The notes below the pieces were generated by a model that did not search any database, had not been told where the DNA came from, and saw only the letters and a list, made by a program, of their open reading frames with translations. Of a stretch of 64,000 nt of DNA, positions 21,084 through 23,878 are shown piece by piece. Position 1 is the first letter of the stretch; every line of letters begins with the position of its first letter. The stretch is from Rhodobiaceae bacterium (GTDB lineage: Bacteria; Pseudomonadota; Alphaproteobacteria; RS24): assembly GCA_024645085.1 (NCBI GenBank), contig JAHEGN010000007.1, positions 1 to 64,000 of the forward strand. The letters are read 5' to 3'. The position numbers were made by a program, and so were the translations under genes.

Positions 21084-22010
21084 CTAATCGGACGACTTGT
21101 CGGGGTTACGAGGCAGGCGCCGAAAATTGAAACGCCCATCCAATAAACCCATTAGGCTGACGGGAATAATCACCCAGGCCGTCATGAGGAGGAAAAAATA
21201 TAGCGCTGTCAAAAATAACGCACGCCCTTTCCAAGCGCCGGAGATAGCATGAATAATCGCTAAACCCAACAAAAAATATGCGCTAATGGCAATCGCCGCG
21301 AGGGTCAGAGCAAGATTGGCGAGCCAGCCGTCAAAAATAAAGCTCGCAATAAAGCAAGCGGCAATGCCAAAGGTTAAATAGCTTGGCAAGGTCAGGGTCT
21401 TGTAATCTGGCGTTGGCCGCAAATTGCGCGAAAAATAAACCGTGCCTGCTTGCGCGATTTGTAAGCCGCCAAGCATTAAAATTGGCCAAGAGGCGAAGCC
21501 GGTAATTAGCACCCAATTGGCAATTATCGACACTTCACCCAAAGTTGATGTGCCATACACCGCTTCCAAGGTTTGCATGATTTCTGGCGTTTCATACATT
21601 GTGTCGGCCAAAAGTTTTGGTAGGCCGCCGGCGTAATCGGCAAAACCGAGATAGACCAGAACCGCACCCAAGGCGACGATGATTAGCGTGTCTTCAATAA
21701 TAAAGCGCGGTGGGTAGAATTGAAATTGATCTTGATAATCGGGGTCAGTCCGCGACATGAGCGCCCGTCGAATAAGCGCCAGTGTTGGGATAAGCAAAAA
21801 TAGAGCAAAAACAAAAGCCATCGGCGGCGATAGCAGAAAACCGGTCAGTAAAAGTGCAAATGCCGCTGCCAGTGCCGCCTCAGCCAGCCCAAAGGCCAGT
21901 CCAATAGCAGCCACTGGAACAGCGGCAAAAGGTAGTGTCACCACGCCAGCATAAAGAACAAAGCTGGCAAGGGCGGCAAAAGCACAAGGAAGGAGGCGGG
22001 ATTGGCTCAT
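21084..22010 (-). CDS. DUF2232 family membrane protein
   Basis: 308 residues with about eight hydrophobic segments and almost no soluble domains, ending in a short basic/polar tail (NFRRLPRNPDKSSD). DUF2232 proteins are predicted integral membrane proteins of unknown function, distantly like ECF-transporter S components. The position between rpsR and rplI is a conserved alphaproteobacterial arrangement, which is the main support for the call. It is probably translated from the S6-S18-L9 mRNA. No substrate can be inferred. Confidence 0.78.
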   Translation of the reverse strand: MSQSRLLPCAFAALASFVLYAGVVTLPFAAVPVAAIGLAFGLAEAALAAAFALLLTGFLLSPPMAFVFALFLLIPTLALIRRALMSRTDPDYQDQFQFYPPRFIIEDTLIIVALGAVLVYLGFADYAGGLPKLLADTMYETPEIMQTLEAVYGTSTLGEVSIIANWVLITGFASWPILMLGGLQIAQAGTVYFSRNLRPTPDYKTLTLPSYLTFGIAACFIASFIFDGWLANLALTLAAIAISAYFLLGLAIIHAISGAWKGRALFLTALYFFLLMTAWVIIPVSLMGLLDGRFNFRRLPRNPDKSSD

Positions 22011-22049: not shown

Positions 22050-22286
22050 TTATTGTTCGACTGTGTAAGGCATGAGAGCCAAATAACGTGAGCGTTTAAT
22101 TGCCCGCGCCAGCTCTCTTTGTTTTTTCGCCGAAACCGCAGTGATGCGGCGTGGCACGATTTTGCCGCGCTCTGATACATAGCGCTGCAACAGCCGTGTG
22201 TCTTTGTAATCAATAACCGGTGCATTCGGCCCAGCGAATGGGCATGACTTGCGACGGCGACCAAATGGACGTCTTCCCTGGCTCAT
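22050..22286 (-). CDS. rpsR: 30S ribosomal protein S18
   Basis: bS18 binds S6 on the platform of the small subunit. The 78-residue sequence has the family core KSCPF...[28 protein letters not shown] followed by the basic helix [22 protein letters not shown]. Its ATG overlaps the rpsF stop by four bases (ATGA), giving balanced synthesis of the S6:S18 pair. Confidence 0.97.
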
Positions 22287-22666
22287 TCTGATGCTCCTTC
22301 AAAATCACTTGCGCCACGACGTGGTGTGCGGCGGTCATCACGGTTTTTATTGCGCATTTGAACTGACTCGTCAGTTTCATGTGCGTCAACCCGCAATGTG
22401 AGGTGGCGAATAATGTCATCATTCAAGCTGATGCGGCGTTCCATTTCGGCAACGGCCGCATGGTCGGCTTCAATGTTTAACAATGAGTAATGACCTTTGC
22501 GGTTTTTCTTCACCCGATAGGCCAGTGATTTCAAACCCCAATATTCATTTTTGGTGATTTTACCGCCGTTTTCTTCCAAAACAGCCGTAATCATATCGGT
22601 CAGACCTTCAACCTGTTGGGTTGAAATATCTTGCCGTGCAATAAAGATATGCTCGTATAGAGCCAT
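22283..22666 (-). CDS. rpsF: 30S ribosomal protein S6
   Basis: bS6 forms a heterodimer with S18. The start is ATG 22664-22666 with AAAGGAGAG upstream; the frame is open to 22801 but the extra 45 residues are leader sequence. From there [22 protein letters not shown] opens a normal S6 fold of about 95 residues (ending [17 protein letters not shown]), followed by a short charged tail ([16 protein letters not shown]) to 127 residues. It heads the S6-S18-DUF2232-L9 operon and follows a leader of about 175 nt that probably has a regulatory role. Confidence 0.96.
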
Positions 22667-22841
22667 AGCTTCTCTCCTTTTCTTTCGGCGCCGAGCCCCT
22701 GGCGAGCACTTTTCTACCCGAAGGGAGAAGCTCACAAGTAACGCGAGAGCGGAGACAAGGGACGCGGACCATTCCGAATAATCAGTTCTCTTGGCGGGCA
22801 AAAGATGATTACCTGTCCTTTCAGCCTCCGGCCGACTTAAC
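22667..22841 (-). promoter_or_regulatory. Structured 5' leader of the rpsF operon
   Basis: Between the predicted transcription start (about 22841) and the rpsF ATG lies about 175 nt without a gene. It contains a hairpin at 22704-22733 (GAGC...TTCG loop...GCTC). The same segment's GCTTCTCCCTT (22731-22721) can instead pair with the Shine-Dalgarno stretch AAGGAGAGAAGC (22679-22668): 11 pairs with one bulged A. S6:S18 repression through the rpsF leader is known in other bacteria; here it is inferred from base pairing only. Confidence 0.5.
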
Positions 22842-22865
22842 AGCAGGGTGATACACGTTTACGCT
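22837..22865 (+). promoter_or_regulatory. Promoter candidate for fabD
   Basis: TTAACA (22837-22842), 17-nt spacer, TACGCT (22860-22865). The -10 is weak. It interleaves with the opposite-strand rpsF promoter candidate. Confidence 0.35.
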
Positions 22866-22876
22866 GGGCTTGGCAA
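22848..22876 (-). promoter_or_regulatory. Promoter candidate for rpsF operon
   Basis: On the minus strand TTGCCA (22876-22871), a 17-nt spacer and TATCAC (22853-22848). The -35 is the same as in the ndk promoter candidate. Start of transcription is expected near 22841. Confidence 0.55.
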
Positions 22877-22939
22877 GGGGCAATCAAGGCTGGAAACAGA
22901 CCATGACTCAGCTTAAAAATAAGCCATAGGAGACAGCAC

Positions 22940-23878
22940 ATGGGACAGACATTTATTTTTCCGGGACAGGGCAGCCAAGCGGTCGGCATGGGGCGAGATC
23001 TAGCGCAAAATTATGCTGAGGCACGCGCCGTTTTTGACGCCGTGGACGAGGCGCTGGGGCAAAAGCTCAGTGACTTAATGTGGGATGGGCCAGAAGATGA
23101 GTTAACCCTCACGGAAAATGCTCAACCGGCCCTGATGGCGGTTTCCATGGCGGTGGTGCGGGTGCTTGAGGCGCGCGGCTATTCAATCGCCGAGCATGCT
23201 TCCTATTTGGCCGGTCACAGTCTTGGTGAATATGCGGCGTTGACCGCCGGTGGCGCGCTCAAATTAGAAGACACAGCGCGCTTGCTGAAATTGCGGGGTC
23301 AAGCCATGCAGCGGGCCGTGCCGGTTGGGGTTGGGGCGATGGCCGCGCTATTGGGATTGGATTTTGATGCGGTGATTACGATTGCCGCCGATGCCAGTGG
23401 CGATGGTGAAATCGTCGGTGCGGCCAATGATAATGCCAATGGGCAAGTCGTGATTTCCGGCCATGCAACAGCGGTTGAGCGGGCCATTGAACTGGCCAAA
23501 GAACGCGGTGCCAAACGGGCCATGCCGTTGCCGGTCAGCGCGCCTTTCCATTGCGCTTTGATGCAACCAGCGGCCGATGAAATGCAGGCGGCTTTGGCGG
23601 CGGTTGATATTCAATCCCCTCGTGTGCCGATTATTGCCAATGTAACGGCTGGGCCGGTCAGTGATCCGGACGCCATTCGCAAATTGCTTGTCGAACAGAT
23701 TACGGGGTCTGTGCGATGGCGTGAATCGATGATTTGGTTGGCCGAAAATCAGGCCGGTGAATTGCTGGAATTGGGTAGCGGTAAAGTGCTGACCGGCATG
23801 GCGCGGCGTATTGATGAGCGCCTCAGCGCCAAAGCCCTGAACACAGCAGAAGATATTGAAGCATTTTTGGCTGTCTAA
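22940..23878 (+). CDS. fabD: Malonyl-CoA:ACP transacylase
   Basis: Loads malonate onto acyl carrier protein for fatty-acid elongation. The active-site Ser94 is in AGHSLGEYAAL, the catalytic His in PFHCALMQPA near 204, and the LRGQAMQRA Arg motif near 118. The N-terminal FPGQGSQAVGMG is diagnostic. Length 312 is typical. AGGAGA lies upstream of the ATG. It heads the fabD-fabG-(terminator)-acpP-fabF-mltG-gmk row and diverges from rpsF. Confidence 0.96.
   Translation: MGQTFIFPGQGSQAVGMGRDLAQNYAEARAVFDAVDEALGQKLSDLMWDGPEDELTLTENAQPALMAVSMAVVRVLEARGYSIAEHASYLAGHSLGEYAALTAGGALKLEDTARLLKLRGQAMQRAVPVGVGAMAALLGLDFDAVITIAADASGDGEIVGAANDNANGQVVISGHATAVERAIELAKERGAKRAMPLPVSAPFHCALMQPAADEMQAALAAVDIQSPRVPIIANVTAGPVSDPDAIRKLLVEQITGSVRWRESMIWLAENQAGELLELGSGKVLTGMARRIDERLSAKALNTAEDIEAFLAV

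Follow-up and report, generated by a model that had tools for sequence, protein, structure and literature searches.

Known rpsF leaders and comparison with the present locus

The leader of the E. coli operon holding rpsF and rpsR carries a putative Shine-Dalgarno (SD) sequence inside its structure, and the complex of ribosomal proteins S6 and S18 (S6:S18) represses translation, according to the available text of the study describing it (PMC4647458). Another S6:S18 leader, found in Chlorobi by Eckert and Weinberg (2020), was described as having no apparent rRNA mimicry, and the same survey, as far as its available text goes, called an S6:S18 leader conspicuously absent in Alphaproteobacteria and mentioned unpublished motifs (PMC7247131). 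As well, a 2007 study of S. meliloti detected sra29, an RNA of about 110 nt seen as a Northern band and termed a "probable leader for rpsF" (PMC2245857). The main text of two large surveys of bacterial RNA motifs does not mention rpsF (PMC8632094, PMC11109978).

In the window, which is the whole 64,000-nucleotide stretch of DNA analysed here, the 5' UTR of rpsF (about 22841-22664) is, in our estimate with a probability of about 0.65, a structured, autoregulatory S6:S18-type leader belonging to a class that Rfam does not include. No description of the present structure was found in the open-access literature, subscription papers and preprints being largely outside that search. Rfam 15 matched nothing in the window or in those loci of relatives that were scanned, and at a permissive threshold its only matches lay elsewhere and far below the cut-off. 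The RpsF_leader model (RF02893) matched none of 142 alphaproteobacterial genomes and scores 110 bits in E. coli, with low sensitivity beyond close relatives, since E. coli alone matches among 14 control genomes.

Like RF02893, the present leader lies in the 5' UTR of an operon that includes rpsF and rpsR and can hold the SD within RNA structure (available text of PMC4647458): the 5' UTR is structured, rpsR was confirmed downstream in the window only, and sequestration of the SD is possible judging by pairing potential and covariation. The two differ in that the E. coli RNA is modelled over 85 positions and has a bulge carrying CC and mimicking C719/C720 of 16S rRNA, as its available description has it, whereas the alphaproteobacterial leader is about 170 nt long and has a three-way junction and two competing folds. 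The GCUGAAUAAUCCGU bulge with the CC contacted by S18 is not in the present leader, where GGCUGAA is followed by P3 and not by UAAUCCGU. The present leader would act like an S6:S18 leader without being a member of RF02893. The sequence-only reading had called it an alphaproteobacterial version of a known leader; a conserved alphaproteobacterial rpsF leader it is, but not a version of RpsF_leader, whose model finds no match in the loci and genomes scanned.

It is very improbable, in our view, that the leader is an RpsF_leader with its strands swapped, in which the E. coli pairing CCUUGCCUCC:GGAGGCUGAA... would correspond in opposite order to GGAGGCUGAA...:CCUUGUCUCC of the window. The 10-mer GGAGGCUGAA is indeed common to both, and only 3 of 500 shuffles equal it; yet UAAUCCGU, an essential part of the bulge in E. 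coli, is absent, the longest match is this 10-mer in only 47 of 236 leaders and the 7-mer GGCUGAA in 136, and the covariance model matches neither the window nor the relatives scanned.

The Chlorobi leader resembles the present one in lying in the rpsF 5' UTR, in being lineage-restricted and in having no apparent rRNA mimicry, a likeness drawn from the available text description only and not from structure. The RNA sra29 also lies in the rpsF 5' UTR, and five Sinorhizobium/Ensifer genomes carry the present RNA at that place, S. meliloti 1021 being outside those five; sra29 differs in being known as a size band and probable leader, for which the available text gives no structure (PMC2245857).

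The rpsF locus and its transcription

The genes of the locus and the parts of the leader are given in Table 1. Between rpsR and rplI, a membrane-protein-like ORF of 308 aa (21084-22010, minus strand) has no Pfam match at E 0.001. On the other side of the leader, a divergent acyltransferase gene, which we take to be fabD, begins at 22940 according to the ORFs and Pfam matches of the window. A 16S rRNA gene was not detectable in the window's assembly (G000), which is 99.65% complete.

Table 1. Features of the rpsF locus and leader (positions in the window)
Feature	Position	Strand	Description
P1, outer closing helix	22685..22835	-	5' strand 22835-22831, 3' strand 22689-22685; relatives have up to 7 pairs; 85-89% of cells paired; 5/7 pairs changed on both sides
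P2	22750..22830	-	22830-22824 with 22756-22750, then UGAA bulge 22823-22820; 98% paired; 2/7 pairs changed on both sides
P3	22758..22819	-	22819-22815 with 22763-22758, 22759 bulged; 93% paired; 4/6 pairs changed on both sides
P4 and P5, variable hairpins closed by P3	about 22814-22764	-	
Strand X (CUCUCGCG)	22742..22749	-	P6a with 3' half of Y, 22749-22746 with 22700-22697; 3/4 pairs changed on both sides
Strand Z and anti-SD (GAGCUUCUCCCUU)	22721..22733	-	5' arm of P6b; also SD partner
Strand Y (GCUCGCCAGGGG)	22696..22707	-	forms P6b with Z (22707-22704) and P6a with X; at the X/Z boundary, bases able to pair with either strand
Conserved joining stretch (GGCUCGGCGCC)	22687..22697	-	runs into the 3' strand of P1; GGCU, and GC two bases on, invariant in A4
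Shine-Dalgarno stretch and 3' extension (AAGGAGAGAAGCU)	22667..22679	-	covered in the SD-closed fold
rpsF (ribosomal protein S6)	22283..22666	-	ORF and Pfam Ribosomal_S6, E 1.1e-29
rpsR (ribosomal protein S18)	22050..22286	-	overlaps the end of rpsF; ORF and Pfam Ribosomal_S18
rplI (L9)	21060-20392	-	downstream of rpsR; ORF and Pfam Ribosomal_L9
Predicted rpsF promoter	22848..22876	-	-35 TTGCCA 22876-22871, 17-nt spacer, -10 TATCAC 22853-22848; read by eye

A strict sigma-70 consensus scan near rpsF reported no promoter. Among 227 unique leaders, a promoter-like pair CTTG...TA(T/C) occurs 5' of P1 in 149, against 6.6 expected from shuffling, and the end of its -10 element lies at a median of 15 nt ahead of P1. 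A transcription start downstream of 22721, which had been named as a possible objection to the switch, is unlikely, because the predicted promoter and this conserved pair lie upstream of P1.

Architecture and covariation of the leader

As the sequence-only reading had claimed, the segment GCTTCTCCCTT (22731-22721) can form 11 pairs with AAGGAGAGAAGC (22679-22668), one A being bulged, and both coordinates and letters proved exact; A22732-U22667 adds a twelfth pair to this duplex of anti-SD and SD. The same segment is also the 5' arm of a hairpin (22733-22704), closed by GAGC/GCUC with UUCUCC/GGUAGAA above. The description of this element as a TTCG-loop hairpin holds for the window, but the TTCG loop is found only there and in the nearest relative, L001, and the hairpin is one arm of a much larger RNA: the rpsF leader of about 170 nt is well supported by covariation as a single structure, a three-way junction of P1, P2-P3 and P6.

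Folded as a single sequence, the leader of the window is no better than its shuffles (z -0.60 and -0.17), so the case for it rests on relatives. Alignment A2 omits L018, which contains Ns, L002, which duplicates the window, and L023, which is offset by one base. Alignment A4 holds 62 leaders of the 71 references drawn up, without L032, L036, L050, L082, L089, L112, L133, L204 and L213, some of which were cut wrongly by the parser. It supports five helices (P1, P2, P3, P6a and P6b), in which 91.0% of 1798 cells form standard pairs, compared with 82.8% after shuffling and 41-57% (at most 57.3%) when the strands are slid. Both bases have varied in 19 of the 29 pairs; shuffles give 10.9 such pairs (sd 1.5). 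The covariation score, 0.210 in shuffles, reaches 0.367 in the alignment, a value that none of 500 shuffles attained, and one of 500 shuffles has as many pair types. Counted directly in 153 unique cores, P1 is paired in 89%, P2 in 98%, P3 in 93% and P6a in 89%, compared with 28-67% for slid strands. For P6a, a large share of the covariation lies between one family and another and therefore reflects few independent events.

Part of strand Y appears claimable by either Z or X, a suggestion more weakly supported than the helices themselves. In the family f70, where alone the test of exchange is informative, three Y bases are able to pair with X as well as with Z, in 99, 100 and 96 of 101 leaders, respectively, and shifted controls do so in 48 and 27 of 101 at two of the three positions. 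In f1, three of five Y positions can pair with both strands in 18 of 20 leaders, and one of the two shifted controls pairs equally often (20/20). In f10, this holds for four of five positions in 28 of 32 leaders, the first extension base of Z pairing in none of the 32 and a shifted control in 31. In L223, the sequence UCUUUCG occurs in X as well as in Z, and Y contains CGAAAGA. The idea that X:Y and Z:Y exclude each other entirely was considered and rejected, since a count of bases shows that the larger part of P6a and P6b can coexist and that the boundary bases alone are contested.

Small inverted-repeat inserts, e.g. GTTACCGC..GCGGTAGC, lie between P1 and the SD in four members of genus g5 (L003, L004, L006 and L008), and L006 seemingly has two of them.

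Pairing of the anti-SD with the Shine-Dalgarno sequence

The pairing of anti-SD with SD was compared between each leader and re-dealt combinations, the regions taken being the stretch between X and Y and the last 24 nt ahead of the start codon (the last 22 nt when re-dealing stayed within families). Among 214 unique leaders (of 247 loci, 236 were parsed and 234 used), the leader's own pairing averages -15.89 kcal/mol and the re-dealt one -13.70 (sd 0.17); when re-dealing was restricted to families (142 unique leaders), the values are -14.97 and -13.67. In both cases none of 5000 re-deals was as low, the permutations ignoring kinship beyond the similarity clustering applied to the base counts of f70. 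A stretch from the P4/P5 region averages -9.99 kcal/mol against the SD and is as strong as the anti-SD in 15 of 214 leaders. Within f10 alone, own and re-dealt pairings do not differ (-14.69 vs -14.68).

A single base of f70 points to what constrains the strand. All but one of 101 leaders have G or A as the second Z base, which faces mostly U in Y (G.U 56, A-U 34, G-C 10). Considered with the base after the SD, the counts are 44 for G with C, 20 for G with another base, 3 for A with C and 31 for A with another base; by similarity cluster, they are 36, 20, 3 and 30, respectively. Because G goes with C after the SD (44/64) and A does not (3/34), this base seems to be set by the SD partner more than by the hairpin. 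In Rhizobiaceae, a different anti-SD is seen by eye at the corresponding place, e.g. CUUUCUUGC with GCAAGAAAG, and another hairpin seems, again by eye, to stand in for P6b.

The covariation analysis of relatives that the sequence-only reading had called for thus bears out its central point: the complementarity is conserved, lack of conservation being excluded, and both the structure and the anti-SD:SD pairing covary, as do the two competing pairings of the one segment.

When 22841-22664 is folded by calculation, the minimum free energy structure is the SD-closed one (-57.8 kcal/mol), with a mean pair probability of 0.79 for anti-SD:SD and 0.05 for P6b. The open fold with P1, P2, P3 and P6b reaches -53.6 kcal/mol, and -47.5 kcal/mol when the four P6a pairs are also forced. 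By calculation, the closed fold would therefore be preferred without any ligand, the open one being 4 to 10 kcal/mol weaker; these energies are a guide only, because nested folding makes P1 and the SD helix impossible together and ignores the order of synthesis. A closed ground state is what one would expect if there were no effector and the structure simply covered the SD, giving a fixed translation rate or melting with temperature. Such a thermometer or brake would need the anti-SD and SD alone, yet P1, P2-P3 and P6a are separately constrained and the anti-SD strand keeps a second possible partner. This explanation is judged quite improbable.

Proposed regulation

Whether the leaders of Hyphomicrobiales and neighbouring alphaproteobacterial lineages form a new class, sensing S6:S18 despite lacking the known binding motif and regulating translation through an exchange of three strands in which X and Z compete for Y and freed Z covers the SD, is, in our judgement, evenly balanced. 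Comparison of relatives supports the two states of Z with the anti-SD: it can pair with Y, forming hairpin P6b and leaving the SD free, or with the SD and the bases following it, so that the SD is hidden. The proposed control of these states is as follows. Free S6:S18, made of the first two gene products, might bind the junction and the conserved P2/P3 internal loop and favour X:Y pairing; Z would then be released, the SD covered and translation of rpsF-rpsR repressed. As 16S rRNA takes up S6:S18, Z would return to Y and the SD would open. If so, the cell would probably stop producing S6 and S18 when their supply suffices.

The gene context makes S6:S18 the candidate effector, and a likely one because of position and precedent. 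The same RNA switch might instead answer to S18 alone, L9, another protein or a small molecule. In keeping with this, rplI lies downstream of rpsF-rpsR and no rRNA mimicry was seen in the leader, which showed no likeness to the S6:S18 site of 16S rRNA when compared by eye with the 16S sequence. We nevertheless regard another effector as unlikely, for the RNA stands before rpsF wherever the gene start is readable, which is the position of the proven E. coli S6:S18 leader (available text of PMC4647458).

Control through processing of the leader or early termination, rather than through covering of the SD, has likewise a slim chance of being correct. It could account for the Northern band of about 110 nt of sra29 in S. 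meliloti (available text of PMC2245857), but a leader fragment could also remain if the RNA decays once translation is blocked, which has been proposed for E. coli; moreover, a search of 22600-23000 found no terminator-like hairpin, and the pairing with the SD covaries.

If the S6:S18 reading is true, the present RNA would be the second S6:S18 leader without apparent rRNA mimicry, after that of Chlorobi. It offers one candidate, with consensus structure, covariation, distribution and a stated switch, for the alphaproteobacterial gap noted in 2020 (available text of PMC7247131).

Distribution among relatives

The search for S6 found it in 55 of 61 genomes. In the family of the window, the large conserved leader is present in 23 of 25 upstream regions, the window included; it is absent from L025 and L026, both smaller, incomplete genomes. 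An A+T-rich repeat stands upstream of rpsF in place of the leader in L025. A covariance model built from 22 leaders of this family (R1) matches 23 of 28 genomes of the order or family of the window, the five misses being the genomes of L025 and L026 and three without an S6 match. R1 also matches 36 of 40 genomes of f10 and 110 of 119 of f70, once per genome and with E values of about 6e-7 to 1.5e-21, neither family being in the model. In an evenly drawn sample of the class, R1 matches 12 of 385 genomes and the broader model R2 15, adding f121 and f171; in a sample of the phylum, 27 of 200 match, all within the same class, and searches over more than 40 genomes used stricter filters, so that misses there are not proof of absence.

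A scan of 84,980 species with the P2-P3 core pattern gave at least 119 stretches. Immediately upstream of rpsF are 109 of these; in seven the sequence ends first, and L229, L277 and L296 are chance matches. The last 39 were checked for rpsF only. The 80 titled matches are presumably mostly of Hyphomicrobiales genera. Among the matches listed are Rhizobium, Sinorhizobium, Brucella, Methylobacterium and others, the pattern scan having revealed Rhizobiaceae. Since Sinorhizobium, Rhizobium and Methylobacterium have good genetics, the question can be put to a direct test.

Of 167 loci from R1, excluding the f10 matches G408 and G422, 162 were parsed with an S6 start downstream, as both locus parsers required; three more have one, and two end at or near contig ends. 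An earlier parse held 154 of these loci, giving the 142 unique leaders of the within-family anti-SD test and the 153 unique cores of the helix test. Four of four further R2 matches that were read lie before rpsF. Thus, the RNA sits before rpsF wherever the gene start is readable.

Finally, a second type of alphaproteobacterial rpsF leader (CUCCUUGCCGG-hairpin-CCGGCUAGG...CAGCCAUAAGGAG) is likewise an rpsF 5' UTR with an anti-SD. It differs in having the anti-SD at the 5' end of the element and with a different sequence, a 5' CUCCUU that can pair with the SD. This type may be a divergent relative of RpsF_leader. Among 24 regions upstream of rpsF from genomes that lack the present RNA, a strict pattern finds it in 11, namely L027-L029, L318, L319, L322, L323, L327, L331, L332 and L336.
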